Below, piece by piece: positions 6,432-47,312 of a DNA stretch of 47,907 bases (the stretch's first letter is position 1; every line of letters begins with the position of its first letter). This stretch comes from Bacteroidales bacterium (GTDB lineage Bacteria > Bacteroidota > Bacteroidia > Bacteroidales > UBA932), in NCBI GenBank assembly GCA_017458145.1, contig JAFTGA010000033.1:1-47907 (forward strand). Reading direction: 5' to 3'. Both the position numbers and the translations under genes were made by a program. A model generated the notes under the pieces. That model worked only from the letters and a program-made list of their open reading frames with translations. It did not search any database and was not told where the DNA came from.

Positions 6432-8735
6432 ATGAAAAGGAGTGCTTTGCTGCTGATGGTGCTGCTGGCTGCCGCGTGTGGTCCGCGCCCTTCCGAATAT
6501 GTCGACTGGCTGTATGCATCGATGCCCCTTCCGGACAGTCTCCAGTATCCCCGCAGTTTCTGGGAGGAGAATGTGCGGAAGACGCTGGAGGTGCGCCAAA
6601 AGATGCACTGGGATATTCCCGAGCGGGAGTTCCGGCACTTCGTCCTGCCCCTGCGCGTAAACAATGAATCCCTGGACGACTTCCGGACGGTCTATGCCGA
6701 CACCCTCTGCCGCCGCGTGCAGGGCCTGAGCCTTGCCGAGGCGGCCCTGGAGATCAACCACTGGTGCCACGAACAGGCCACCTACGCACCGTCCGACGGC
6801 CGCACGAGCGCTCCGATGGCTACGGTCCGCCGCGGCGTGGGGCGTTGCGGCGAGGAGTCCGTGCTGGCGGTGGCCGCCCTGCGCGCCGCCGGCATTCCGG
6901 CCCGCCAGGTCTATACGCCGCGCTGGGCCCATACCGACGACAACCACGCCTGGGTGGAGGTCTGGGTGGACGGGAAATGGCATTTCATGGGTGCCTGCGA
7001 GCCTGCGGCGACCCTCGACAACGCCTGGTTCAACGCGCCCGTGTCCCGCGCCCTGCTGCTGCATACCAAGGTCTATGGCGACTACCAGGGCGACGAAGAT
7101 GTCATCCAGCGTACGCCCTGCTACACGGAGATCAACGTGATCCGCGGTTATGTCCCGGCCCGCCGCACCGTCGTCACGGTGCTGGACGGCGGGCAGCCGG
7201 TGGAGGATGCCGCGGTCTCGTTCCATATCTACAACTACGCCGAGTTCTACCCGGTGGCTTCCTACCGCACGGATGCGGACGGCCGCGCGGCCCTGGACAC
7301 GGGTCTGGGGGACGTGCTGGTCTGGGCCCGCAAGGGCGGCCGTTTCGGCTTTGCGAAGGCCTCCGGCGAGGTGGTGACCGTCTCGCTGGACCACCGTTTC
7401 GGCGAGCGCTTCAGCGCCGACCTGGACATCGTGCCGCCCGCGGAGCATCCCATTCCGGTGGACGCCACGCAGGAGCAGACACAGGCCAATGCCCGCCGCC
7501 TGGCCGCGGAGGACGCGATCCGCGCCGCCCATCCGCACGGCAACCCGGACGTGGAGGCCTTTCTGGAGGACCATTATTTCAGCGGCAAGGCCCTGCTACA
7601 GCTCCTGACGGAGAAGGACCGCGGGGACGTCACGCGCGACGTGCTCGAGGATGCAATCAGCCACGACTCCGGCAGTTTTGATCCTTATGTCGTCTCACCG
7701 CGCGTGGAACTGGAGCCGCTCCGGCCTTTCCGCGGCGAGGTGATCGCTTCCGGACTGGGCGCCCGTTTTGGCGGCGCGGATGCGGTGGCGCGCTGGGTGC
7801 GCGACAGCATCCGTGTGGTGGAAGGCCGCAATCCCCAGCGGCTCCGCACGGCACCGGCCGCCGTCTGGCAGGCCCGCAGGGCGGATGCGCTCGGACGCGA
7901 CATCTTCTACGTTGCGCTCTGCCGGTCCTTCGGTTTCCCGGCGCGCCTGGACGAAGTGACGGGCAAGACGCAGTACCGGCTGGACGGGGCCTGGGTGGAC
8001 GTGGACTTCGGCACCCGGGTGGAGGAGCGCGTGGCTCCGCAGGGCACAGTCCGCCTGCTGTATGCCGCCGCCGGTCCCGTCCGCACCCCCGAATACTACC
8101 GCCACTACACGCTGTCCCGGCTGGAGCCGGAAAGTACGCGCCTGATGGAATACGAGGAGAACGGCCCTGCGCGCGATACCTATACCCTCGACGAGGGGTA
8201 CTACCTGCTGACCGCCGGCAATCGGATGGCGGACGGCAGCGCGCTGGTGCATCTGGAGTTTTTCCCGGTCGCAGCGGACCGGACCACGGACGTGCCGCTG
8301 GTGCTCCGCCGGTCGGAGGACCGGCTTTCCGTAGTCGGCACGATGGATGCCGAGGCGCCCTTCCTGCGGGAAGGGGCACAGGCCCCGCAATCGCTGCTGA
8401 GCGCCACCGGGCGGGGATATTTCCTGCTTGCCGTGATGGGCGGAAAGGACGAACCGACCTCCCACGCGCTGCATGAACTGGCCGCCGCCGCGCCGGATCT
8501 CAATGCCTGGGGCCGGCCGGTCGTGGTGCTGGGACAGGCGCGGCCGGAAGGGCTGGAAAATGCCGTTTTCGGGAGCGATCCCGACGGACGCATCCGGGCG
8601 ATGCTCGCCGCTCCGGGCGATGTCCTCCCGCTGATCGCGATGTGCGACAGTTTCGGGCGGATCGTTTACCTGTCCAAAGGATACAATACCTCGCTGGCGG
8701 CCGACCTGCGCCGCGTAACCGCGCAATGCCGATGA
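6432..8735 (+). CDS. Transglutaminase-like lipoprotein with thioredoxin-like C-terminus
   Basis: 767 residues with a lipoprotein signal (LAAAC, Cys16). A transglutaminase-like (papain-fold) domain lies at about 100-195: Cys139 in GRCGEES, His172 in DDNHAWVEVW, and an acidic residue in GACEP at 188-191. That gives the usual Cys-His-acid triad. A beta-rich carboxypeptidase-regulatory-like segment follows (about 235-320), then a second, degenerate transglutaminase-like unit around 430-540. The last 150 residues look like a thioredoxin fold without a CxxC pair. Such proteins occur widely in Bacteroidales and face the periplasm. They may act as peptidases or cross-linkers, but no substrate is established. 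It heads a rightward run with cutC, an alcohol dehydrogenase and an NlpC/P60 enzyme, joined by stop-start overlaps or short gaps. Confidence 0.82.
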   Translation: MKRSALLLMVLLAAACGPRPSEYVDWLYASMPLPDSLQYPRSFWEENVRKTLEVRQKMHWDIPEREFRHFVLPLRVNNESLDDFRTVYADTLCRRVQGLSLAEAALEINHWCHEQATYAPSDGRTSAPMATVRRGVGRCGEESVLAVAALRAAGIPARQVYTPRWAHTDDNHAWVEVWVDGKWHFMGACEPAATLDNAWFNAPVSRALLLHTKVYGDYQGDEDVIQRTPCYTEINVIRGYVPARRTVVTVLDGGQPVEDAAVSFHIYNYAEFYPVASYRTDADGRAALDTGLGDVLVWARKGGRFGFAKASGEVVTVSLDHRFGERFSADLDIVPPAEHPIPVDATQEQTQANARRLAAEDAIRAAHPHGNPDVEAFLEDHYFSGKALLQLLTEKDRGDVTRDVLEDAISHDSGSFDPYVVSPRVELEPLRPFRGEVIASGLGARFGGADAVARWVRDSIRVVEGRNPQRLRTAPAAVWQARRADALGRDIFYVALCRSFGFPARLDEVTGKTQYRLDGAWVDVDFGTRVEERVAPQGTVRLLYAAAGPVRTPEYYRHYTLSRLEPESTRLMEYEENGPARDTYTLDEGYYLLTAGNRMADGSALVHLEFFPVAADRTTDVPLVLRRSEDRLSVVGTMDAEAPFLREGAQAPQSLLSATGRGYFLLAVMGGKDEPTSHALHELAAAAPDLNAWGRPVVVLGQARPEGLENAVFGSDPDGRIRAMLAAPGDVLPLIAMCDSFGRIVYLSKGYNTSLAADLRRVTAQCR

Positions 8736-35460: not shown

Positions 35461-37274
35461 ACCGGAAGAACAAGATCCTGATCGGGCTGGGTGCCGTGGC
35501 CGGCATCCTGCTTGTGAAGCTGTTCTATATCCAGATCATCAACGACAAATACAAAGTGGACGCGTCGAACAATTCGATGGTCTATAACTACATCTATCCG
35601 CCGCGCGGAGTCATCTACGACCGGAACGGCGAGATCCTGGTCGGCAACGAGGTCTGCTATGACATTTCCGTGACGCCGCGTGACGTTCAGCCTTTTGACA
35701 CCCTGGCACTTGCTGCGGCGCTGGGGATCGAGCCGGACTACATCCGGGAGCGGATGGCTTATTACCGCCAGTATCGCACCCGCATCGGCTACCAGACGCT
35801 TTCCTTCCTCAAGCATATCCCGCAGGAGAATTATATCCGGTTCACCGAAGAGGCGTATCGGTTCCCGGGCTTCCGGGCGGAAGTGCGCAGCGTCCGTCAG
35901 TACCCGTTCAATGCCGGTGGCAACTTGCTGGGATACATTTCGGAGGTGGACGCCGATTATATCAAGAACCACCCGGATTACCGCTCCGGAGACTATGTCG
36001 GCAGGACCGGCCTGGAAGCCGCGATGGAGGAGAAACTGCGCGGCGTCAAGGGTTATCATATCTACCTGCGCGACTCGCGCAACCGTGTCCAGTCGCCGTA
36101 TATGGACGGAGCCGAGGACAAGGAAGCGGAACCCGGCAAGGATGTCGTGTCCACGATCGACGCCCATCTTCAGCAGTATGGCCAGCAGCTGATGGAAGGC
36201 AAGGTCGGCTCGGTCGTGGCGATTGAGCCGTCCACCGGGGAGATCCTTGCGATGGTCTCCAGCCCGGGCATCGACGTGGATGTGCTCAGCGACATCGGCA
36301 GGCACTATTCCGAGATCTCCCGCAACCCGCGCAAACCGATGTTCAACCGGACGGTGATGGCCTCTTACCCGCCAGGCTCCGTCTTCAAGTTGGTCAACGG
36401 CTTGATCGGCCTGCAGGAAGGGACGCTGACCCCATCCAACAGGTATCCCTGCGTGCACGGTTTCCCCTACGGCGGTAACCGCCGGCTGGGCTGCCATGGG
36501 CATGCCTCCCCGCTCGATCTGCTGAGCGCTATCGCCACTTCGTGCAACGGCTACTTCTGCTACGTCTTCCGCAACATCCTGGACAACAAAAAGTACAAGA
36601 ATACCGCGGAGGCTCTTGACGCCTGGCGGGAATATGTGCTGAGTTTCGGCTTCGGACGCAAACTGGGCAGCGATTTCCCCTCGGAGCTGGGCGGCAATAT
36701 CCCGACATCCGCTTTCTATGACCGGGTGTACGGGAAGGGGCGCTGGCGCTTCCAGACCATTATCTCACTCTCCATCGGGCAGGGAGAAATCGGCGCCACT
36801 CCGCTCCAGATTGCCAATCTGGCCGCCACGATGGCCAACCGGGGGTACTACTACATCCCGCATATCGTCAAGGATTCCGACGGGATTGAAATAGACCCCA
36901 AATACAAGGAGCGGCAGTACACCCTGGTTGACACCGCACATTTCCATAAGGCCGTACAGGGGATGTATATGGCCGTGAACGGCGGCGGGTCGGCCGGGGG
37001 CACGGCGTTCAGCGCACGTATTCCGGGACTGGATGTGTGCGGCAAGACGGGTACGGCCCAGAACCCGCACGGCAAGGACAATTCCGTGTTTATCTGTTTC
37101 GCGCCCAAGGACGATCCCAAGATCGCCGTGGCGGCGTATGTGGAAAATGCCGGCTTTGGCGCCACCTGGGCGCTTCCGGTGGCTTCGCTGATGCTCGAGA
37201 AATACCTCAACGGAGAGATCTCCGAGTCACGCAAGTATCTTGAGGACCGATTGTTGACCACCCGATTCTTTTGA
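35451..37274 (+). CDS. mrdA: Penicillin-binding protein 2, elongasome transpeptidase
   Basis: 607 residues from the ATG at 35451; the ATG at 35457, which overlaps the mreD stop as ATGA, is equally possible. One transmembrane helix (about 8-28) precedes a dimerisation domain (PPRGVIYDRNGEILVGN). The transpeptidase domain has Ser310-Lys313 in PPGSVFK, Ser364-Cys-Asn366 in ATSCNGY, and Lys532-Thr-Gly534 in CGKTGTAQN. It cross-links new peptidoglycan strands made by RodA during elongation. The gene lies between mreD and rodA, as in most rod-shaped Bacteroidales. Confidence 0.94.
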   Translation: MEMNRKNKILIGLGAVAGILLVKLFYIQIINDKYKVDASNNSMVYNYIYPPRGVIYDRNGEILVGNEVCYDISVTPRDVQPFDTLALAAALGIEPDYIRERMAYYRQYRTRIGYQTLSFLKHIPQENYIRFTEEAYRFPGFRAEVRSVRQYPFNAGGNLLGYISEVDADYIKNHPDYRSGDYVGRTGLEAAMEEKLRGVKGYHIYLRDSRNRVQSPYMDGAEDKEAEPGKDVVSTIDAHLQQYGQQLMEGKVGSVVAIEPSTGEILAMVSSPGIDVDVLSDIGRHYSEISRNPRKPMFNRTVMASYPPGSVFKLVNGLIGLQEGTLTPSNRYPCVHGFPYGGNRRLGCHGHASPLDLLSAIATSCNGYFCYVFRNILDNKKYKNTAEALDAWREYVLSFGFGRKLGSDFPSELGGNIPTSAFYDRVYGKGRWRFQTIISLSIGQGEIGATPLQIANLAATMANRGYYYIPHIVKDSDGIEIDPKYKERQYTLVDTAHFHKAVQGMYMAVNGGGSAGGTAFSARIPGLDVCGKTGTAQNPHGKDNSVFICFAPKDDPKIAVAAYVENAGFGATWALPVASLMLEKYLNGEISESRKYLEDRLLTTRFF

Positions 37275-37276
37275 GT

Positions 37277-38590
37277 ATGCTGGGCATGGACAAGACTACA
37301 GGCTCCTTCGACAGGGGATTGGGAAAGACCGTTGACTGGTGGATCGTGGCCTGCTACCTGATGCTGGTCTTGATTGGCTGGGTGAACATCTATGCCTCGA
37401 TCCATTCCACGGAACCGGCATCCATCTTTGACTGGACGGCGCGGAGCGGCAAGCAGTTCGTCTGGATCCTGACGGCGTTTGTCCTGGACATCCTGATCCT
37501 CTTCGTGATCAACCCCCGGCTTTGGGAGGTGGTGTCGCCCTATATGTATGTGGTCGTGCTCTTCCTGCTCGTCCTGGTGATTTTTGTCAGCAAAGACGTC
37601 AAGGGTTCCCACTCCTGGTTCGAATTGGGACCGGTCAAGTTCCAGCCGGCTGAAATCTCGAAAATCACGACATCGCTGCTGCTGGCTGCCGTCATGAGCA
37701 AAGCCAATTTCCGTCTGTCCAACCGCAGGCATTTCCTGGCGGTGGCCGCCATCATCGGGCTGCCGATGCTGGCCATCCTGGGCGAGAGCGAGACAGGCTC
37801 CGCGCTGGTCTATGTCGGCTTTCTGCTGGTTCTGTACCGGGAGGGAATGTCCGGAATCTGGCTGGTTCAACTCGGGATGGCCATCCTGCTCTTCATCCTG
37901 ACCCTGATTACCGATTGGTGGGTGTCGGTGGCCGTACTTTTCGCCATCTGCGCTTTCTACTACATCCAGTTCCTGCGTCACACGCGCCGCGAGTCGATCC
38001 ATATCCGGCGCCGCGCGCTTTTCCGCACGCTCCTGGCTTTCGCCGCAGGCGTCATGATGGTATTTGCGACGGATTTCATCTTCGAGAATGTCCTGCAGGA
38101 CCACCAGCGCAAGCGCATCGAGGTGCTTCTCGGCCTGAAGGAGGACCCGTCCGGCGTCGGTTACAACGTGCGCCAGTCGATGATCGCCATCGGCTCGGGC
38201 GGCCTGGCCGGTAAGGGCTTCCTGCAGGGGACGCAGACCACCTACGGGTTCGTACCGGAGCAGAGCACCGACTTCATTTTCTGCACCGTCGGAGAGGAAT
38301 GGGGCTTCCTGGGCTGCCTGACCGTGATCCTGCTGTATGTCTTCCTGATCTGGCGCATCATCACGGATGCCGACAAGAGCCGGGAGGCGTTTACCCGGAT
38401 CTATGGTTATTGCCTGGCGTCCTGCCTGATGATGCACCTGTTCATCAACATCGGGATGACCATCGGCCTGATGCCGGTGATCGGCATCCCGCTGCCCCTG
38501 CTCAGCTACGGCGGCTCTTCGCTGTGGGCCTTCTCCGTGATGATCTTCATTTTCATCGCGCTTGACCGCCAGGAGAAGAAATATTTTTAA
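37277..38590 (+). CDS. rodA: Peptidoglycan glycosyltransferase RodA (SEDS family)
   Basis: 437 residues from the ATG at 37277; the in-frame TTG at 37271 overlaps the mrdA stop (TTGA) and could be used. About ten transmembrane helices are visible. SEDS landmarks are SHSWFELGPVKFQPAEISKI, LGESETGSALVYVGF, STDFIFCTVGEEWGF, and GIPLPLLSYGGSSLWA. RodA polymerises lipid II together with PBP2. A long loop between helices (RHTRRESIHIRRR) is basic. The gene ends the operon 10 bp before a tRNA promoter box. Confidence 0.94.
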   Translation: MLGMDKTTGSFDRGLGKTVDWWIVACYLMLVLIGWVNIYASIHSTEPASIFDWTARSGKQFVWILTAFVLDILILFVINPRLWEVVSPYMYVVVLFLLVLVIFVSKDVKGSHSWFELGPVKFQPAEISKITTSLLLAAVMSKANFRLSNRRHFLAVAAIIGLPMLAILGESETGSALVYVGFLLVLYREGMSGIWLVQLGMAILLFILTLITDWWVSVAVLFAICAFYYIQFLRHTRRESIHIRRRALFRTLLAFAAGVMMVFATDFIFENVLQDHQRKRIEVLLGLKEDPSGVGYNVRQSMIAIGSGGLAGKGFLQGTQTTYGFVPEQSTDFIFCTVGEEWGFLGCLTVILLYVFLIWRIITDADKSREAFTRIYGYCLASCLMMHLFINIGMTIGLMPVIGIPLPLLSYGGSSLWAFSVMIFIFIALDRQEKKYF

Positions 38591-38599
38591 AAAAATACG

Positions 38600-38607
38600 T
38601 ACCTTTG
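38600..38607 (+). promoter_or_regulatory. Promoter -7 box for tRNA-Leu
   Basis: TACCTTTG, 8 bp before the predicted tRNA 5' end, fits TAnnTTTG. A -33 TTG is not clear. Confidence 0.55.
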
Positions 38608-38614
38608 CATCCAC

Positions 38615-38912
38615 GCCTTGGTGGTGGAATGGTAGACACGAGGGACTTAAATCCAAATTGAGTGCTCGTTCCGAAAGGAGCGATGTAGAATGTCGTAAAT
38701 TCAAGGAAGCCTTAACGGGTAATGCCGATGGTAATCTTGAGCCGAGCCTCCGGCAGGAGGAAGGTGCAGAGACTAGACACGACACACCTAAAGATCCAGG
38801 ATCTATGGTGAAGGAATAGTCCAGACCACAAACGGAAGGTGGCGAAAGCCATAGTGGTATGAAAATCCCTTGGCCCGAAACGGCCGTGCGGGTTCGAGTC
38901 CCGCCCGGGGCA
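38615..38912 (+). tRNA. tRNA-Leu(UAA) interrupted by a group I intron
   Basis: The exons are 38615-38648 and 38862-38912, giving a mature tRNA of 85 nt. The acceptor stem pairs GCCTTGG (38615-38621) with CCGGGGC (38905-38911), with two adjacent U.G pairs, and the discriminator is A38912. The D arm contains GGTAGACACG. The anticodon stem AGGGA/TCCCT encloses the loop CTTAAAA, anticodon UAA. A type II variable arm (GGCC/GGCC) and a T arm (GCGGG-TTCGAGT-CCCGC) follow. CCA is not encoded. The intron lies between U34 and A35. Without the intron, the gene folds as a standard bacterial leucine tRNA, so it should be functional after splicing. Confidence 0.93.
38649..38861 (+). ncRNA. Group I intron in tRNA-Leu(UAA), IC3-like
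   Basis: 213 nt with no room for a homing endonuclease. The elements found by hand are as follows. P1: exon ACUU with GAGU (38660-38663), a U.G pair at the 5' splice site. P2: CGTTCC/GGAGCG closed by a GAAA loop. P3: TGTCGT (38691-38696) with ACGACA (38779-38784). P4: TCAAGG (38701-38706) with TCTTGA. P7: GACTA (38771-38775) with TAGTC (38817-38821), next to GGTGCAGAGACTA. P8: CACC/GGTG. A terminal GAAA-capped hairpin lies before the 3' site. The last base is the conserved G (38861). The core segments AAGGTGCAGAGACT and ATAGTCC match those I know from the Anabaena and plastid tRNA-Leu introns. Confidence 0.92.
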
Positions 38913-38920
38913 CAAATTTT

Positions 38921-38955
38921 CTCCGTATCTTATTGGATTCCAATTTGATACGGAG
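38921..38955 (+). terminator. Strong hairpin terminator after tRNA-Leu
   Basis: CTCCGTATC (38921-38929) pairs with GATACGGAG (38947-38955). Inside, ATTGGA pairs with TCCAAT after a TT/TT internal loop. A T-rich run (ATTTGTTTTCTTCTC) follows. It starts 9 nt after the tRNA. Confidence 0.75.
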
Positions 38956-39078
38956 ATTTGTTTTCTTCTCGCCCCACCCGTGCCCCACCAAATTTCCGGG
39001 TGTGGTTTCTCCACTCTTTTTCCAACGTCACTTGATAGTGGGGACCGATATCCTACAGCCCCATATTGCTGACAAGGA

Positions 39079-39110: not shown

Positions 39111-39129
39111 CAGAAAAGAACGTTTGCTT

Positions 39130-39984
39130 ATGGGACAAAAAGAGGCGCTACAGCTATTTGAGGACAAGAAAATAAGAACGGCATGGAGCGAGGACGATGA
39201 AAAATGGTATTTTTCCATCGTTGATGTTGTCGGTGCACTAACAGATCAGCCTACACCCAAAAGAGCCAGTACATATTGGTCGGTTTTAAAGACTAGGCTT
39301 AAGGAAGAAGGCGCAGAGGAACTTCTTACAAATTGTAAGAGGTTGAAAATGTTGTCTGCAGACGGGAAGCATCATCCGACTGATGTCGCTGACATTCAAA
39401 CTATTTTCCGCATCATTCAATCGGTCCCATCAGCCAAGGCCGAGCCTATCAAACAGTGGATGGCCAGGGTTGCAAGTGATCGCGTTGATGAAATGCAGGA
39501 TCCCGAACTGGCCATAGACCGTGGTTACGAGTATTATCGCAGGCTCGGGTATTCGGAAGCGTGGATTAATGAGCGAATGAAGGGTAAGGATGCCCGTAAA
39601 GCCCTTACAGATGAATGGCAGCGGACAGGTGTCTCCGGACAGCAATACGCGACTCTTACCGATATTATTACGTATGAATGGTCGGGGATGACCACGCGTC
39701 AGTACAAAACCTACAAAGGCCTTAAGAAGGAAAACCTTCGTGATCACATGACACGAACTGAGAGTGCGTTGAATACGTTGGCCGAAGTCGCAGCCACGGA
39801 ATTGTCCCAAAAGATAGACCCCAAAGGGTTCAAAGAGCAGAAGTCCATTGCTAAGCGAGGTGGCCGCGTTGCCGCGACGGCAAGAAAAGAGTTGGAGAAA
39901 CAACTTGGACAGAGTGTGGTTACACGCCAAAACGCTAGGGCTCTTCATGGGCCAGAAACACCAGAACAGATTGAAGAACAATAA
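39130..39984 (+). CDS. Bro-N domain protein (phage/mobile-element type)
   Basis: 284 residues from the ATG at 39130; an in-frame TTG at 39124 is less likely. The N-terminal Bro-N domain is clear: LFEDKKIRTAWSEDDEKWYFS, then VVDVVGALTDQPTPKRASTYW, and DVADIQTIFRIIQSVPS near 90-105. The C-terminal half has YATLTDIITYEWSGMTTRQY, LKKENLRDHM and ARKELEKQLGQSVVT, as in the long Bro-N proteins of Bacteroidales mobile elements and prophages. Bro-N is a DNA-binding domain found in baculovirus BRO and phage antirepressors; the role here may be regulatory. It is the first gene after tRNA-Leu and starts the mobile region, coupled to the next gene by TAATG. Confidence 0.85.
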   Translation: MGQKEALQLFEDKKIRTAWSEDDEKWYFSIVDVVGALTDQPTPKRASTYWSVLKTRLKEEGAEELLTNCKRLKMLSADGKHHPTDVADIQTIFRIIQSVPSAKAEPIKQWMARVASDRVDEMQDPELAIDRGYEYYRRLGYSEAWINERMKGKDARKALTDEWQRTGVSGQQYATLTDIITYEWSGMTTRQYKTYKGLKKENLRDHMTRTESALNTLAEVAATELSQKIDPKGFKEQKSIAKRGGRVAATARKELEKQLGQSVVTRQNARALHGPETPEQIEEQ

Positions 39985-40673
39985 TGACCTTTATGGACAT
40001 CATAACCCCTATCCCCAAGACGCTCATTCCGGACGATGAGCGGCGCAAGGGTGTGAACCGGGGCTTCCTCATTGCGGCAGCGCTCATCTTTCTTTTTCTT
40101 TTCATCTACTGGCTGTTCAAGGATTTGGCGGAAATTACTGACGCCTCCGGACACCCGTTCCTACTTGTCCTTCTGGGACTGGCCAAGGTCCTTGCCGGAG
40201 TCATCATGTATCTGGTCGCTTGTTGGGGCTGCAGAGTTTGCGTGCATGTATATACGCTTAAATCGGGCGCCAACAGGTCTAAGCCACCAAAGTCCATAGA
40301 ACCCCAGCCCGTGATGAATCTTTCTGAGCCAGACCCTCCTGCTATCAGGGACCTGTGCGAGGAAGGAACGCCGCATCAGTTCTTCTCAAATCTTTACCAG
40401 TGGATAGCTCTTGAGAGCAACCGAAAAGGCCCTCAACTGGCATATCTTTACTATGCCCTCTCCCTGAATCATATCCTCAAGGACCCTAAGCCGAAGAAAA
40501 TGCTAAATGCGCTGATGAACACTTATCCGGACTTCACGTTCGCGAAAGACAGTGCATTCCGCCATGCATGCTCGAATATCAAAAACCGTCCGGAGGGTCG
40601 GGAAAAGAAGGAAGACCAGGCCAGGATTGCCGCGATTTACAAGGAACTGACAGCGCCAAAGTTGCCAAAGTAG
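39984..40673 (+). CDS. Membrane protein of the mobile element, unknown function
   Basis: 229 residues; the ATG shares a base with the previous TAA. Two transmembrane helices at about 28-46 (FLIAAALIFLFLFIYWLF) and 60-82 (LLVLLGLAKVLAGVIMYLVACW) are followed by a cytoplasmic helical domain of about 140 residues with a Lys/Glu-rich tail (GREKKEDQARIAAIYKEL). I do not recognise the family. Its place between a Bro-N gene and mobilization genes suggests it belongs to the mobile backbone. Confidence 0.65.
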   Translation: MTFMDIITPIPKTLIPDDERRKGVNRGFLIAAALIFLFLFIYWLFKDLAEITDASGHPFLLVLLGLAKVLAGVIMYLVACWGCRVCVHVYTLKSGANRSKPPKSIEPQPVMNLSEPDPPAIRDLCEEGTPHQFFSNLYQWIALESNRKGPQLAYLYYALSLNHILKDPKPKKMLNALMNTYPDFTFAKDSAFRHACSNIKNRPEGREKKEDQARIAAIYKELTAPKLPK

Positions 40674-40704
40674 CCAGCAAAATCAGCCAAATTAACCAAT
40701 AATT

Positions 40705-40735
40705 CTTGCCAGACTTGCCATAACAGCCTGGCAAG
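40705..40735 (+). terminator. Hairpin between the membrane-protein gene and the HTH leader
   Basis: CTTGCCAG (40705-40712) pairs perfectly with CTGGCAAG (40728-40735), flanked by AATT on both sides. No strong T run follows, so it may be a weak terminator or a processing signal. Confidence 0.45.
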
Positions 40736-40750
40736 TAATTCGCCCTTATT

Positions 40751-40849
40751 GTTGTAGTACGGCATGCCGTCATCCGATAGTCGGGTGGCGGCTTTTCCGT
40801 TACGGGCCTCTGGCGGCAAAGTCCTTAACCCGCCCAGAACTACTACAAC
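40751..40849 (+). promoter_or_regulatory. 99-nt structured leader of the excisionase-like gene
   Basis: GTTGTAGTA (40751-40759) pairs with TACTACAAC (40841-40849), closing a 99-nt element that ends one base before the ATG at 40851. Inside are the perfect palindrome ACGGCATGCCGT (40759-40770) and a CGGGT/ACCCG pair (about 40782-40786 and 40827-40831). The ATG would be exposed at the foot of the long stem. This could be a cis-acting RNA that controls translation, or a DNA site bound by a protein. Confidence 0.5.
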
Positions 40850-40850
40850 T

Positions 40851-41162
40851 ATGGACCTACAGTCTATCATCGAGAATGGCTGTGCCAACGTGACCATTCA
40901 AATCACGGCAAAGGACCTCAAGGACTTTGCTAACCATCTATTTGAAACCGCCGTCAGGAGGGCCAGGGCCGAGCAGGCATCGGCCGACGGAGAGGATTAT
41001 CTGAGCAAAGCCGAAGTGATGGAACTCTTCGGCGTCTGCGATACCACCCTCTGGCTTTGGGCCAAGAACAATTATCTCAAGCCTGTGAAAGCCGGACGCA
41101 AGGTTCTGTACCGGAAGGGCGATGTAGAGAGATTTCTTAGCGCAAAGGAGGACCGGCCATGA
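40851..41162 (+). CDS. Excisionase-like helix-turn-helix protein
   Basis: 103 residues from the ATG at 40851. The N-terminal 40 residues are helical (DLKDFANHLFETAVRRARAE). The C-terminal 55 residues carry a MerR/excisionase-type HTH_17: YLSKAEVMELFGVCDTTLWLW, then LKPVKAGRKVLYRKGDVERFL. In Bacteroidales such proteins sit upstream of the replication and mobilization genes of mobilizable elements and act as excision factors or regulators. The ATGA overlap with the next gene implies cotranslation. Confidence 0.85.
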   Translation: MDLQSIIENGCANVTIQITAKDLKDFANHLFETAVRRARAEQASADGEDYLSKAEVMELFGVCDTTLWLWAKNNYLKPVKAGRKVLYRKGDVERFLSAKEDRP

Positions 41163-41710
41163 AACGCATCCGCAGAGACAAGGGCGTACTATACTACACG
41201 CTTGCGAAGGACACCATCCTCGCAAAAAACCTGTCATTGAAGGCTAAAGCCTTACTGGCCATCCTGCTGAACCTTCCCGAAAACTGGCATTTCACGGTTG
41301 CCGGTATCTTGACCTACCTCCAGGAAGGTAGGGAGGCCGTAATGTCGGCCTTGAAGGAACTTGAGTCGGCCGGATATCTCACTATTACACAGGCACGGGA
41401 TAAGAGGGGCCGAATGAACGGACGGGAATACGTTGTCCGTGAACTGAAAGCGGAGGCGCCGGAAGCGGAAACACCGCAGGCGGATCCACCGCAGCAAAGT
41501 AAATCTAAAGAAGATAAACCGGCAGAAGCAAATAGAAAAAAGTATTTAACCAATAAAGAGATTCAAGAAAGTTACAAGAAAACCCATAAGGAATTGTCAC
41601 AATTCATAGCCCGTCAATCTGGCGGCAGCGTCATTTCCGCGAATGAGGCAGTCAAAACGGCGCTGAAAAAGGAAGGAGATGAGAAAGAAAAAGGAGGTGG
41701 GGTGCTATGA
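41159..41710 (+). CDS. Replication-initiator-like helix-turn-helix protein
   Basis: 183 residues. The first 100 have a winged HTH of the HTH_36/DnaD-like type: GVLYYTLAKDTILAKNLSLKAKALLAILLNLPENW (a long helix pair), YLQEGREAVMSALKELESAGYLT, then RGRMNGREYVVRE as the wing. The rest is a disordered Pro/Glu/Lys linker with a short helical tail. These domains are used by plasmid and transposon replication initiators and by regulators. It is linked to both neighbours by ATGA overlaps. Confidence 0.7.
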   Translation: MKRIRRDKGVLYYTLAKDTILAKNLSLKAKALLAILLNLPENWHFTVAGILTYLQEGREAVMSALKELESAGYLTITQARDKRGRMNGREYVVRELKAEAPEAETPQADPPQQSKSKEDKPAEANRKKYLTNKEIQESYKKTHKELSQFIARQSGGSVISANEAVKTALKKEGDEKEKGGGVL

Positions 41711-42387
41711 CCACCGGCATCATCCTTTCGGCAAGAGCCAGCCGCCCCATCGCCGCCGTCCCCATTCAGGAGATGAGAAGCCTCCTCGCCGACATTGTCA
41801 TTGACGAGGCGTTTTCCCTGCGCTGCGAGGTGGCAGAGCCAAAGCTGGTGGACGCCATCATCGGCCTGATGCTACAGGAAATCTACACCACCTACAGTTC
41901 CTGGCGAGTCGACGAAATCCGTATCGCCATCCGCGCCGGGGCGTGCTCCCAGCTGGGGCCGATGTACAGGCTGTCGCCTGCCGAGTTCATCCGCGTCATG
42001 GAAGTCTATCACACCTGCCCGCTACGGCTGGAAGCCTTGCGGCAGCTCCGCCGGGAAGAGGAAAAGCCGAAACCGGAAGATCCGGAGACGGTGGCCCGAA
42101 AAAACCGGGAGTGCCTTGCAAAGGTAGCGAAGGATTGTTTTGCCGATGTCAAAACCGGCGGCCGCATCACCTTCTATAGTGACCAGACCTTGTCAAATGT
42201 CCTTGACTTTCTCCTATCGGCCGGAATCATAGTAGCCGATGTCGGCAAAACCGATAACGGTAACCCGCGGCAGCAGCTTGAGGGGATATTCCAGAAGATG
42301 ATAGAACGCGGAGAGGAGTTGGCGCTATGTGAGAATGAGAGGGCGAATCCCCTCTTTCATCGGGGATTGCAAGATATGCTTTTGTGA
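41707..42387 (+). CDS. Conserved mobile-element protein of unknown function
   Basis: 226 residues, helical, soluble. Residues about 25-110 hold repeated helices (LLADIVIDEAFSLRCEVAEP, MLQEIYTTYSSWRVDEIRIAI). A Lys/Glu-rich linker (REEEEKPKPEDPETVARK) precedes another helical part. I have seen this kind of gene between HTH and mobC genes of Bacteroidales elements but cannot name a function. It starts in an ATGA overlap and ends about 70 bp before the mobilization genes. Confidence 0.6.
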   Translation: MTTGIILSARASRPIAAVPIQEMRSLLADIVIDEAFSLRCEVAEPKLVDAIIGLMLQEIYTTYSSWRVDEIRIAIRAGACSQLGPMYRLSPAEFIRVMEVYHTCPLRLEALRQLRREEEKPKPEDPETVARKNRECLAKVAKDCFADVKTGGRITFYSDQTLSNVLDFLLSAGIIVADVGKTDNGNPRQQLEGIFQKMIERGEELALCENERANPLFHRGLQDMLL

Positions 42388-42394
42388 TACAAAA

Positions 42395-42460
42395 GCGGCC
42401 CCTTCCGGGGCTGGATCTGCGCCTGCGGCGGGCACGATGAAAAAGAAAAACGCTTTATGA
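42395..42460 (+). other. Candidate origin of transfer upstream of the mobilization genes
   Basis: A GC hairpin (GCCCC 42398-42402 / GGGGC 42407-42411, loop TTCC) and the short repeated sequence CTGCGCCTGCGGCGGGC lie just before mobC. That is where MOBP-type elements usually have oriT. A seven-codon frame MKKKNAL (42437-42460) overlaps the mobC ATG and could couple translation. The nick site cannot be read by eye, and the hairpin could also be a leftward terminator. Confidence 0.3.
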
Positions 42461-42906
42461 GAACAAACAAAACTAAGATGATAAGCCTCCGGTTGACGGA
42501 GGCGCAGTATAGCAAGCTACATGCATTGCTTGAACTTTCCGGATACAAGTCCCGCACCCGTTTTATCATTGAGGCGGTACTGGGAAAAGGAGGCAGACTG
42601 GTATCTATCCATGCAAGTGATGACGCGCTGCTAAAGGCACGGAAGCAACTGCTGATGCTGTATAAAGAGATGGCTAAAGAGGGCGCCAATCTGAACCAAA
42701 TCACAAAATCCATCAACGCAATAAGGAAGAAGGTCGGCAACAAATACGTCAATTGGAAGAAACTCTCCGATGACATTACGATGGCCGGCCACGTTGCCGA
42801 GAAACTGACATGGCGTTCCCGTGATGTTCACAATATCGCCGTAGGGATTGAATGTGACTACGTCCCGTCAGAGGAAGAAGCAGATGAAGAAGAGGAGGAA
42901 CAATAA
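42457..42906 (+). CDS. mobC: MobC-like mobilization accessory protein
   Basis: 149 residues. A ribbon-helix-helix-like N-terminus (KMISLRLTEAQYSKLHALL, GYKSRTRFIIEAVL) precedes the MobC signature GANLNQITKSINAIRK at about 77-91. An acidic tail (EEEADEEEEEQ) closes it. MobC-type proteins bind near oriT and help the relaxase melt and nick DNA. The gene overlaps the relaxase gene by the shared base of TAATG, as is usual for these pairs. Confidence 0.82.
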   Translation: MRTNKTKMISLRLTEAQYSKLHALLELSGYKSRTRFIIEAVLGKGGRLVSIHASDDALLKARKQLLMLYKEMAKEGANLNQITKSINAIRKKVGNKYVNWKKLSDDITMAGHVAEKLTWRSRDVHNIAVGIECDYVPSEEEADEEEEEQ

Positions 42907-44165
42907 TGGTTGTAAAGATTATGAACTCTGCCGCCAGCATGGCACCGCCGCTTGGCTACAATGAGAACAAGGTGGCAATGGGAACGGCCAGGGTCATCTA
43001 CCAACAGGGCATCAAAGACATCAAGAACCCCAGGGAGTCTTTTGCCGCATACGAAAAGGCTAACGTGCGAACGGTGAACGTTGCTCTGCACCTTTCCATT
43101 AATCCGTCGGCAGAAGAGAACCAGCGCCTTACACCCAAGACAATAACAAAGATTGCTCAGGAGTACATGGAGGGTATGGGCTACGGCCAGCAGCCATACA
43201 TTATCTATCAGCACGACGATATAGACCGGCGGCACTACCACATCGTCTCTATCAAGGTTGACAAAAATGGCCGAAAGATTAAGGACAGCAACAATTACAG
43301 GACATCCAAAGCCCTGCTGGAAAAACTGGGGAAGAAGTACGGTTTCGTTCTCGGCAATGGCGAAAAGCAGGTGAAAACCCAGGCCGTGAAAAAGGAATGG
43401 GCTCCCAAGCCGAAGAGTTTCTGGGAAAGGGATGTCCTGCAGCCCATTGCTCCATTTGATCCAAAGGCCGGGCACATCTACAAGCAAGTGGAAAAGATTG
43501 TGGCCGGAGCTATGGAGTACAAGTTCCATTCGGTGGACCAGTTCTGCCAGATAATCTCTGACTATGGTCTCAAAACCACGATGCTGGAGAATGCCGAGGG
43601 TGGTATTTCCTTCACCTTCCAGGGATATGACCAGAAGAGCGGGAGATTCACCAGCAAGCCCATTAACGGGGACAAACTATACATCCCCAGCTATGGGCAA
43701 ATCCGTTTCCAGGCCAGAACAGGACAATATGCGACAAGAAGAGGTGAAACGATGCGTGCCTCCAACATTGTACAATCCTGCTTGCCAAGAGCCAGGTCTG
43801 AAACTCACTTGTATAATATGCTCGCCAAACAAGGAATCTCCATGACGGTTCAACGAAGCGAATCAGGCTCCATTGATAACGTCTTCTTCATTGACCATCG
43901 CACCCGATGTTGCTTCAGCACGGAAAACGACAGTCACTTCTTTGAACTGCGCGACTTCCAACAGATGAACAGACTAGTTTGGAGCACCAATCTGCAAGCC
44001 GATTACGCTGGCGGGCGTGAAGAATCCCGTCGGGCAGAATTAATTCAGGAAATCGTCAAGAAGGCTATGACGACTATGCTCATCACATTGTTTTCAGAAG
44101 GCTCGAGGCGTTATGAGGATGAGGAAATCATGGAACAGGGGCGGCGAAGGGGGCCGAGTTTGTAG
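42906..44165 (+). CDS. mobB: Relaxase/mobilization nuclease (MOBP type)
   Basis: 419 residues. The N-terminal relaxase domain (about 1-230) has a candidate nucleophile Tyr18 in the motif I stretch LGYNENKV, a second block VNVALHLSINPS, and the metal-binding motif HDDIDRRHYHIVS with His103, His110 and His112. The C-terminal half is helical and basic, typical of Bacteroides mobilization proteins, which lack a helicase. It nicks oriT and pilots the single strand into a conjugation channel supplied by another element. No transfer genes are nearby, so the element would be mobilizable, not self-transmissible. Confidence 0.88.
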   Translation: MVVKIMNSAASMAPPLGYNENKVAMGTARVIYQQGIKDIKNPRESFAAYEKANVRTVNVALHLSINPSAEENQRLTPKTITKIAQEYMEGMGYGQQPYIIYQHDDIDRRHYHIVSIKVDKNGRKIKDSNNYRTSKALLEKLGKKYGFVLGNGEKQVKTQAVKKEWAPKPKSFWERDVLQPIAPFDPKAGHIYKQVEKIVAGAMEYKFHSVDQFCQIISDYGLKTTMLENAEGGISFTFQGYDQKSGRFTSKPINGDKLYIPSYGQIRFQARTGQYATRRGETMRASNIVQSCLPRARSETHLYNMLAKQGISMTVQRSESGSIDNVFFIDHRTRCCFSTENDSHFFELRDFQQMNRLVWSTNLQADYAGGREESRRAELIQEIVKKAMTTMLITLFSEGSRRYEDEEIMEQGRRRGPSL

Positions 44166-45515: not shown

Positions 45516-46391
45516 TTAAATTTTCACATGATCTCCGATAAAGAGACTGATCGCCGTCCTGAGTTTCTTCCCCTGGAGGAAGGGAAGGTTGACATGATAG
45601 GCCGACGGCCAGATGCACATGGCCTTTGCGGCCATAATTTGAGCGATACGAGCCATCTTCTCGTTGAGTTCAGGAGTGCCCCAGCGGGAACCGAAATACT
45701 GCCGCCCCATGGCTTCATAGAAGCGTTTCAGCGTTTTCCTGTCTATATGAAAAATCTTCAGCAGGACGGGATTGGGCCCCAAATGGTGCATGTGGGCAAG
45801 AATGTTAAAATCCAGCAGCGGGTCTCCGTAGCCGAAATCTCCCAGGTCTATCCAGTACACCTTGCCATCAGCTATGATAATGTTACAGGGATTCAGGTCT
45901 CCGTGCAGGCAGGTGGTAGCGGGTTCCAGGTCATCGATGTAGCCTAGCACTCTTACCTTTATATTCTCCGGGATGGTTTTATTCCCGGCAATCATCTCCC
46001 GCGTACCCTGGGCTAAATCGCTGAAGACTTCCGTATTGCATGGCGTTGCGTGCAGCGCCTTGGCATACTCGGCCGTAATCCCGGCCAGTTCCTCCAGCCG
46101 CTCGGGATGGTCGGCAATGATTCTGCCAAAGGATTCTTTTCCTTGAATCCGCTCCACAATCATTCCGTAGCGCTCGCCATCGGTGACGAACTCATAAGGC
46201 TCAGCCGAGGGAATGCCCATGTCGTACACGGCCTTTGAGCGCCGGAATTCTTCCTGCGCCTTCTGGGCCGAAACGCTGGTTTTGTTGAGTTTAAGAATGA
46301 CGGAGTCGTCCGTTTTGTTGTAGAATGACTCTCCGAAGCCTCCGCCTCCGAAGGACTCCCATTCATTCAGGTTGATATGATTTGCTTCCAT
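45516..46391 (-). CDS. Aminoglycoside-phosphotransferase-like small-molecule kinase (copy 1)
   Basis: 291 residues of the APH/choline-kinase fold. A Gly-rich loop FGGGGFGESFY at about 14-24 and Lys34 in SVILKL bind ATP. The catalytic loop is CLHGDLNPCNIII (His163, Asp165, Asn170), and the metal motif is VYWIDLGDFGYGD (Asp182). It belongs to the subgroup I know as the Fibrobacter paralogous putative-kinase family (TIGR02172-like), whose substrate is unknown. It is 56 bp downstream of a similar kinase gene on the same strand, sharing motif order and about the same length, so the two are tandem paralogues. Confidence 0.82.
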   Translation of the reverse strand: MEANHINLNEWESFGGGGFGESFYNKTDDSVILKLNKTSVSAQKAQEEFRRSKAVYDMGIPSAEPYEFVTDGERYGMIVERIQGKESFGRIIADHPERLEELAGITAEYAKALHATPCNTEVFSDLAQGTREMIAGNKTIPENIKVRVLGYIDDLEPATTCLHGDLNPCNIIIADGKVYWIDLGDFGYGDPLLDFNILAHMHHLGPNPVLLKIFHIDRKTLKRFYEAMGRQYFGSRWGTPELNEKMARIAQIMAAKAMCIWPSAYHVNLPFLQGKKLRTAISLFIGDHVKI

Positions 46392-46448: not shown

Positions 46449-47312
46449 CTATTCGGTGTAGAACTGCTTCACCAGATGGTTGATATGCATCCTGAAAAAG
46501 AGTTTTTCAAGAAAAGTCGGCTTTACAAAAAAGGTGCGGAGAATAATGTCGAGCGCGGCGTACTTACCTGCCAGGCGGTCAAACCCTGCGTGCTCACTTT
46601 CCTCGGTATAAGCAGTGGCAAAAGCCTCCCAGAAGCGGCGAAGCTGGTCTTCCTCCATATGGAAGATTTCTCGCGCCTGCTTCATGGACGAATACACCAT
46701 GCAGACCAGATACAGGTGGCCGATGTCAAACAACGGGTCTCCGTGGGCAAAGCGATCCAGGTCTATCCAATAGCATCTGTCGCCTGCCTGGATGAGGTTT
46801 CCCATCTGGTAGTCGCCATGGACGCATTGGTCGTTCTCCTGAATGGTTTTGGCAAAGGTGCGAATCTTCTGAAGAGTCTTCTTGCTAAGGAAAGTAGCAC
46901 CATCCAGAGCCTGCATCATCTGCTGGCGTCGACTGGGGAAATAGTCCGTCTTGCAGGGTGTTGCAAATAGCTGCTTGCCCCTTTCGCACAGGAGCCGGGC
47001 CATTTCCTCGATGCGTTCCGGATGGTCATGGCAGATGCGGGAGAGAGACTTTTTGCCGACAATGTGCTCCGAGATGGTGGCATAACCATCCCCCACGCGC
47101 ACCATATCGTGCATCTTGGGGACTGGAATGCCCATATCGCCAACGGCTTTGGAAACTTCATACTCTTTCCTTACAGCCTCCAGGGTGCTCAGACGGGCAT
47201 TGTTTACTTTCAGAATAACGTCGGGCTGCGCAGGATTGATATACGTCTTTCCGTTACCGCCTTCTCCCACCTGCCGCCACTGGGAGAGGTCTATTTCAGG
47301 ATAATCATTCAT
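46449..47312 (-). CDS. Aminoglycoside-phosphotransferase-like small-molecule kinase (copy 2)
   Basis: 287 residues. Its parts correspond one-to-one to copy 1: Gly-rich QVGEGGNGKTY, Lys35 in VILKV, KAVGDMGIPVP (copy 1 has KAVYDMGIPSA), CVHGDYQMGNLIQ with His165, Asp167 and Asn172, and YWIDLDRFAHGDPLFD with Asp184. All the catalytic residues are there, so it should be active. The substrate is unknown. The order on the minus strand is the FKBP remnant, copy 2, then copy 1, with no clear promoter between the kinases. Confidence 0.82.
   Translation of the reverse strand: MNDYPEIDLSQWRQVGEGGNGKTYINPAQPDVILKVNNARLSTLEAVRKEYEVSKAVGDMGIPVPKMHDMVRVGDGYATISEHIVGKKSLSRICHDHPERIEEMARLLCERGKQLFATPCKTDYFPSRRQQMMQALDGATFLSKKTLQKIRTFAKTIQENDQCVHGDYQMGNLIQAGDRCYWIDLDRFAHGDPLFDIGHLYLVCMVYSSMKQAREIFHMEEDQLRRFWEAFATAYTEESEHAGFDRLAGKYAALDIILRTFFVKPTFLEKLFFRMHINHLVKQFYTE

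Follow-up and report, generated by a model that had tools for sequence, protein, structure and literature searches.

An ORF-less group I intron in the tRNA-Leu(UAA) gene of a gut Bacteroidales bacterium most likely belongs to a mobile intron family

Introduction

Has a group I intron in a bacterial tRNA gene been inherited from an ancestor of its host, or has it moved in? The tRNA-Leu(UAA) intron of cyanobacteria and plastids, inserted between U34 and A35 and without an endonuclease gene, is the textbook case of a bacterial intron that is ancient and quiet. PMC4033280 regards these tRNA-Leu introns as more ancestral in origin and places most bacterial and plastid tRNA introns at 37/38. A first-pass annotation of a 47,907-nt stretch of Bacteroidales DNA (hereafter the window, meaning the whole stretch that was analyzed) reported an intron at the U34/A35 position and asked whether it is ancestral or has moved. 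Our search of the literature on group I introns of Bacteroidota and of bacterial and phage tRNAs, with subscription journals mostly outside its scope, found no description of this element.

Results

The tRNA-Leu(UAA) gene of the window is split by a group I intron

Positions 38615-38912 (+) of the window encode a tRNA-Leu(UAA) that is split by a 213-nt group I intron between U34 and A35. Gene, intron type, insertion site and host order are as first annotated: the exon/intron boundaries can be read from the sequence, a full-length match to the Rfam model and covariation identify the intron, and the carrier is a gut bacterium of the order Bacteroidales, genus Candidatus Cryptobacteroides. The locus consists of the following features:

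37271-38590 (+): rodA, 5' of the tRNA; the gene order is mreB-mreC-unassigned ORF-PBP2-rodA
38600-38607 (+): TACCTTTG, similar to a -7 box (pattern match to TAnnTTTG), 7 nt 5' of the tRNA
38615-38648 (+): tRNA-Leu(UAA) 5' exon, last base U34; 26-nt exon pattern matched with 0 mismatches
38649-38861 (+): group I intron, 213 nt, ORF-less, final base G; RF00028 match with E 8.8e-10, and covariation
38862-38912 (+): tRNA-Leu(UAA) 3' exon, first base A35, CCA not encoded; read by eye
38921-38966 (+): possible terminator, inverted repeat CTCCGTATC/GATACGGAG followed by a T-rich stretch; by eye only

Joining the exons by eye yields a tRNA-Leu with the anticodon loop CUUAAAA. TAnnTTTG is presumably the consensus -7 box of Bacteroidota promoters; a -33 partner for TACCTTTG was not found before the tRNA with the pattern used. 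Directly 3' of the tRNA lies a mobilizable element (39124-44165, +) that encodes a Bro-N protein, two helix-turn-helix proteins, MobC, a relaxase and a DUF6043-like protein scoring slightly below the DUF6043 cut-off. No att-like repeat of the tRNA 3' end was found for this element within the window. Two adjacent genes at 45519-46391 and 46452-47312 (-) encode phosphotransferases assigned to the APH family by family name only.

Standard searches overlook this gene, as the first-pass annotation had warned. ARAGORN with default settings reported 0 tRNAs in the window and thereby misses what is apparently the only UAA-reading leucine tRNA of the genome. The Rfam model RF00028 (Intron_gpI) matches positions 38639-38844 over its full length (model positions 1-253 of 253; 42.8 bits, E 8.8e-10); because 42.8 bits lies below the gathering score of 50, a scan at the gathering threshold does not list the intron. 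Counting the window's own genome, 15 genomes of the genus matched, and eight of them exceeded the gathering score.

The genome (2.18 Mb, 64 contigs, 80.5% complete) contains 39 tRNA matches with the leucine anticodons CAA, GAG, CAG and UAG. No second UAA-reading tRNA was found among them, and the 5'-exon pattern (up to three mismatches) occurs once, in agreement with the suggestion that this may be the sole UAA-reading leucine tRNA; since the assembly is 80.5% complete, this absence is not proof. More than one tRNA-Leu(UAA) place was present in only 7 of 146 genomes of the genus.

The ribozyme core is maintained by compensatory changes

An alignment of 43 distinct ORF-less introns, each extended by 9 nt into both exons, served to count pairing in a hand-derived P1-P9.1 structure. 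P1, P2, P3, P4, P7, P8 and the terminal G had been paired by hand before, and all helices from P1 to P9 as well as the terminal G could be placed:

38645-38663 (+): P1, exon ACUU 38645-38648 with GAGU 38660-38663, forming U-G at the splice site; no variation among the 43 introns
38667-38682 (+): P2 with a GAAA loop; double changes in six of six pairs
38691-38784 (+): P3, 38691-38696 with 38779-38784; one pair is U-A in 28 and C-G in 15 sequences
38700-38741 (+): P4, 38700-38705 with 38736-38741; from the 43-intron alignment
38709-38711 with 38730-38732 (+): P5, and 38716-38718 with 38725-38727 (+): P5a, both enclosed by P4
38742-38764 (+): P6, 38742-38743 with 38763-38764, and P6a, 38747-38751 with 38756-38760
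38771-38821 (+): P7, 38771-38775 with 38817-38821; invariant
38785-38810 (+): P8; its loop encodes extra protein sequence in several viral relatives
38825-38858 (+): P9, 38825-38829 with 38854-38858, and the P9.1 hairpin, 38839-38843 with 38848-38852

Of the 2529 cells counted, 96.1% were paired, and sliding the partners by 1-3 columns lowered this to 31-42%. Changes on both sides occurred in 22 of the 59 pairs, the compensatory ones being located in P2, P3, P5a, P6a, P8, P9 and P9.1, and none of 500 shuffles reached the observed value on any of five measures. P1 with its U-G, P6 and P7 are invariant and therefore offer no covariation test. Pairing is weak at a few places: the first P5 pair is open in 20 of 43 introns, two pairs of P9 are open in 19 and 9, and the inner pairs of P8 in 12 and 18. 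Unaided, RNAalifold recovered most helices and did not recover P7 and P9.

In all 43 sequences, the 5' splice site is marked by U-G and the intron ends in G. P3 and P7 lie in pseudoknot register within a P3-P9 core of the group I type, which may resemble subgroup IC3, and P7 would by analogy be the guanosine-binding helix. The window intron is probably spliced.

The least credible alternative is a dead, unspliced tRNA whose functional UAA-reading counterpart fell into the missing part of the 80.5% complete assembly; it is barely conceivable given intact exons, core helices kept by compensatory changes in 43 ORF-less copies, and the rarity of genomes with more than one tRNA-Leu(UAA) place (7 of 146).

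The same site exists in several allele states within the genus

A search with the 5' exon (up to three mismatches) matched 246 of 400 genomes of the genus. The places read were 30 fetched with the exon search, 111 further listed ones, 15 RF00028 loci and one from a draw of family genomes; after removal of duplicates, 154 places in 146 genus genomes were left. Three 3-mismatch rows with the exon of another leucine tRNA, loci already in the set and matches not listed were left out.

Nearly half of the places (76 of 154) are intronless. An ORF-less intron like that of the window, 210-249 nt long where complete, is present at 41, and at 12 places an HNH ORF of at least 150 aa resides in the P1 loop of introns of 722-752 nt. 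At 13 further places a longer insert lacks an ATG-started ORF of 150 aa; among these ORF remnants are deletions and frameshifts, an open frame that has no ATG in the usual position, and an insert of foreign sequence. A second intron lineage occupies the same tRNA-Leu site at four places (L018, L270, L275, L277) and is ORF-less there. The remaining eight are cut by a contig end or unresolved, five of them beginning with a window-type intron. Three genomes contain an intron-bearing and an intronless copy together and a fourth has a cut copy; binning errors could blur some of these states, the genomes being mostly incomplete and many loci lying at contig ends.

Two loci (L012, L118) carry P1-loop inserts of another kind in which HNH is not recognizable, showing that this loop accepts other sequences. 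A locus from a same-genus genome (L009, G012) lies with its entire stretch inside a contig of 'Candidatus Cryptobacteroides onthequi' (L149).

Under strict filters, RF00028 matched in 15 of 37 same-genus genomes and in none of 24 genomes from other families of the order. When 149 genomes of the family were drawn, eight matched: two in the same genus, five in two other genera of the family, which are clear tRNA-Leu introns, and a doubtful one. Since the yields vary with the draw and the number of candidates scored, 15 of 37 and 2 in 149 are not prevalences. The doubtful match (L052, 27.7 bits with RF00028) lacks a tRNA-Leu 5' exon and was dropped as probable chance.

The P1 loop of related introns at this site harbours an HNH endonuclease ORF

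The statement that the intron has no endonuclease gene is correct for the window copy, which contains no ORF of 100 aa or more (longest ATG frame 29 aa) and is classed as an ORF-less relative. This state looks derived, however: at the same site, family members elsewhere in the genus code for an endonuclease-like protein. The ORF sits in the P1 loop and separates the 5' splice site from its guide sequence. Two copies match Pfam HNH_3 (3.7e-06 and 2.3e-06), and Cys pairs and a His-His..Asn..His pattern are visible by eye. A PDB sequence search with the HNH protein found no match under E 0.6, and a comparison with plasmids found no match.

For 16 distinct HNH proteins, including two from another genus and one cut at a contig end, median pN was 0.21 and median pS 0.82. 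Synonymous sites are saturated, and dN/dS was computable in six of 120 pairs, with a largest value of 0.16. In HNH-bearing copies the insert ends are complementary, with duplex energies of -13.5 to -27 kcal/mol (no shuffled control). The frame continues into the ribozyme and in two loci (L050, L051) runs through P3-P8 to a stop in P7. Upstream of the ORF, the pattern TTG-N18-21-TAnnTTTG, which was picked after inspection and counted in related copies, occurs in 10 of 23 introns (8 of 16 introns with HNH proteins and 2 of 7 viral ones) versus 0.12 expected from shuffles; we take it to be the Bacteroidota promoter consensus.

Intron presence is scattered over the host tree

We compared the introns with an MreB host tree of 79 genomes (74 of the genus, five of two other genera), which were chosen by state and not at random; G003, with its MreB match in two pieces, was dropped. 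With 25 rows intronless, 19 changes of intron presence were required, and well-supported branches force no fewer than 15 of these. Shuffled presence labels required 21.4 changes on average, and 58 of 500 shuffles were as low as the observed 19. Intron presence is thus scattered nearly at random over the host tree. The HNH state required 12 changes for 13 rows.

Over 49 genomes, intron-core and MreB distances were uncorrelated (Spearman -0.13; 1831 of 2000 permutations as high), and the five closest host pairs have near-identical introns. Among these pairs, the cores of G204 (HNH) and G288 (ORF-less) are identical at an MreB distance of 5.6%, and those of G318 (HNH) and G240 (ORF-less) differ by 1.4% at 4.2%; both pairs suggest recent loss of the ORF with the ribozyme kept, gain being less likely.

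The target is uniform: in 72 of 76 intronless alleles, the 14 + 12 nt flanking the insertion point have the common sequence. The ratio of two 5'-exon types is similar from state to state (intronless 50/25, ORF-less 26/14, remnant 9/4, HNH 9/3), as expected for an intron that moves without its exon. To the question of ancestry or movement, the genus thus gives an answer pointing to movement: presence and absence are polymorphic at a uniform site, and the intron tree is decoupled from that of the hosts.

Viral relatives interrupt tRNA-Leu genes

In IMG/VR, 20 loci contained the core pattern and 58 the HNH protein. When introns were allowed, ARAGORN labelled seven of 20 viral stretches tRNA-Leu(taa) (L404, L405, L414, L437, L173, L180, L186); L437, the most distant of them, has the ARAGORN label only. 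An eighth (L176) is an interrupted tRNA-Leu(UAA) by eye, while L174 repeats L173, and L183 and L427 repeat L180. A homologous HNH ORF is present in all viral tRNA-Leu(UAA) loci except L173/L174. In five viral loci (L180, L186, L190, L405, L176) it spans the whole core, stops in P7 and encodes an extra Cys-rich, helix-turn-helix-like stretch in the P8 loop (by eye); the longest ORFs of the bacterial family also stop in P7 and lack this stretch. Several of the viral loci are rich in tRNA genes, with 28 tRNAs in 14 kb (L190), 13 plus tmRNA (L414) and 11 (L183); the others have four (L176), three each (L186, L437), two plus tmRNA (L404) or none (L405).

The intron of L414, a 245-kb contig, carries an HNH ORF and comes closest to the second lineage (L018, 86% identity, score 95.5). 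It is 79% identical to the window intron (score 39.0; shuffled scores at most 9.0), and its 5' exon equals that of the window over 28 nt. The same contig encodes a viral tmRNA (2355-2733) with the predicted tag GNTNYSYRMAA, similar to GNYNYSYAC of the window's own genome; as judged from the two tags, this is a hint of a related host.

The nearest viral cores share 82-84.5% identity with whichever of 15 family copies is closest; these copies are 82-95% identical to one another, and the nearest alphaproteobacterial cores reach at most 76%. Among viral homologues, the 16 HNH proteins group as a single clade (100/100). The intron trees rest on 201 and 120 columns. In the 80-row tree, the window-type lineage A is one clade (96/84) and sister to L173/L174 (99/98), within mainly alphaproteobacterial introns; the program flags long branches where L173/L174 join. 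In the 67-row, 120-column tree, lineage A and most phage introns are mixed on one side of a branch (88/94), the second lineage (B) falls into two pieces, and L414 is placed inside A on a branch of 2.5, with the bootstrap not settled; a clade of B, L414 and L426 was not rejected (p 0.54).

From 211 records with an HNH match, seven named phage regions were taken: Dulem virus 42, Agrobacterium phage Atu_ph07, Rhodococcus phage Dorin, Enterococcus phage 113, Synechococcus phage S-CRM01 and two uncultured phages. The window-type intron (R1) is absent from all seven, so homologous HNH genes also exist without it; in three of them the HNH gene lies beside tRNA genes. With blastn, the window intron matched 10 and 47 records of annotated phages, none covering 80% of the query and several lying in protein genes.

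Further observations concern individual viral sequences. A 595-kb uncultured phage (LR756511.1, 409214-409322) matches 47% of the window intron with 76% identity. Two viral contigs (L181, L426) carry introns in genes labelled tRNA-Thr(TGT) and tRNA-Ser(TGA). In L173, a phage gene at 7988-8641, which follows a tRNA-Arg and the intron-bearing tRNA-Leu directly, matches phrog_5018 and, with its C-terminal part, an HNH-endonuclease family.

Introns at the tRNA-Leu(UAA) site occur in other bacteria

The insertion site had been described as known from cyanobacteria and plastids. The shared U34/A35 position stands, but it is not special to these groups. An 18-nt core pattern was found in named genomes at no fewer than 119-120 places, at least 10 of them in Bacteroidota by title and the others largely in Proteobacteria. 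With introns allowed, ARAGORN labelled at least 45 of the listed 120 places tRNA-Leu(taa), labels that are rough: by title these are mostly Alphaproteobacteria, and also Beta- and Gammaproteobacteria, Acidobacteria, Bacteroidales and a few more. Anticodon labels are unreliable for split genes, as L074, L120 and L149 were called Phe/Ser and have exons that fit tRNA-Leu UAA.

A covariance model built from the 43 ORF-less introns, with few candidates scored per genome, matched in two of 295 genomes drawn from the order and, in several tRNA genes, in 28 of 296 from the phylum; both draws contain the window's genome. In one locus of the class Bacteroidia (L351), a tRNA-Leu intron placed one base earlier, at U33/U34 (by eye), has a homologous HNH ORF in its P1 loop. 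Genomes of one family of the phylum (L352-L354, L356-L359, L373) have up to three group I matches each, labelled tRNA-Leu(CAA/CAG) and tRNA-Arg(TCT). In L355, an ORF within about 480 nt before the core of a tRNA-Leu(CAA) intron looks PD-(D/E)XK endonuclease-like by eye.

Discussion

Very probably, the window contains the ORF-less descendant of a homing group I intron that is specific for the anticodon loop of tRNA-Leu(UAA) and common to phages and gut Bacteroidales. The full element would carry its HNH endonuclease gene in the P1 loop, and in many copies a motif resembling Bacteroidota promoters precedes this gene. An intronless tRNA-Leu(UAA) would be cleaved by the enzyme at the conserved anticodon site, and repair from an intron-bearing copy would insert the intron. 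Later the ORF would decay or be deleted, as in the window, and the ribozyme would remain; it would have to stay functional because this tRNA seems to be the only reader of UUA. As the window copy has no endonuclease, mobility would belong to its history and not be a property of its own. Phages with the same kind of intron and HNH ORF in tRNA-Leu(UAA) probably exchange it with gut Bacteroidales, and transfer may have run in either direction.

Movement might instead have taken place mainly with the whole tRNA locus, by recombination in its flanks. tRNA genes are frequent recombination and integration sites, and the window has a mobilizable element directly downstream. We consider this route quite improbable, because the ratio of the two 5'-exon types is similar whether or not an intron is present, the HNH ORF of the intron has a low pN/pS, and no second copy of the tRNA 3' end was found in the window.

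Very improbable in our judgement is an ancient, vertically inherited and immobile intron that was lost many times in the genus and received HNH ORFs as later guests. The identical insertion site, the many ORF-less copies and the near-identical introns of the five closest host pairs would agree with such a history, and absence could be loss. Over all pairs, however, intron and host distances are uncorrelated, and a second lineage occupies the same site at four places. The covariance model matched in two of 295 order genomes, one being the window's own, and RF00028 in none of 24 genomes of other families, with filters that lose weak matches in both searches.

The homing intron proposed here has a further, unlikely extension, in which phage tRNA arrays are both reservoir and weapon. 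A phage HNH enzyme would cut the host's single tRNA-Leu(UAA), the phage copy would be shielded by its intron, and hosts would keep ORF-less introns that block the cut site. If so, the ORF-less intron of the window would be more than debris and would protect its host heritably.

Despite its old and quiet appearance, the intron most likely belongs to a mobile family. A single gut genus shows every stage of a homing cycle at this site (empty, full, decaying, ORF-less and occupied by another lineage) and has relatives in phage tRNA genes. This makes it testable whether introns at the tRNA-Leu(UAA) site are old or have invaded repeatedly, and whether tRNA introns are spread by phages.

Several known systems resemble this family in part. 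Phage group I introns likewise combine a ribozyme with an endonuclease ORF. PMC3984707 and PMC7886860 cover group I introns with endonucleases in phages, in which crAss-like phages are rich; PMC3984707 states that, as of 2014, every phage intron known sat in a protein-coding gene. Unlike those earlier introns, the viral relatives found here interrupt tRNA-Leu. PMC5746245 describes an interruption of about 2.5 kb in a phage tRNA-Stop, terming it the first in a phage and cautioning that it is possibly an artefact.

The tRNA-Leu(UAA) introns of Alphaproteobacteria (L053, L106, L129 and others; R1 scores up to 167 bits) lie in the same gene and, where read by eye, at the same site. They differ in being about 200-250 nt long by ARAGORN, too short for an HNH ORF, and fall outside the branch of lineage A and L173/L174 in the 80-row intron tree. 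A bacterial tRNA intron encoding an endonuclease also has a precedent: the tRNA-fMet intron of Bonocora and Shub (2001), from a cyanobacterium, is said to encode an enzyme specific for the anticodon region, going by the title, and reportedly of the PD-(D/E)XK type, whereas here an HNH protein is found in tRNA-Leu(UAA) of Bacteroidales and phages. The introns of cyanobacteria and plastids, compared by description only, share with that of the window the host gene, the U34/A35 site and a small ORF-less group I ribozyme; the Cryptobacteroides family is set apart from them by its HNH ORFs, its variation between close species and its relatives in phages.
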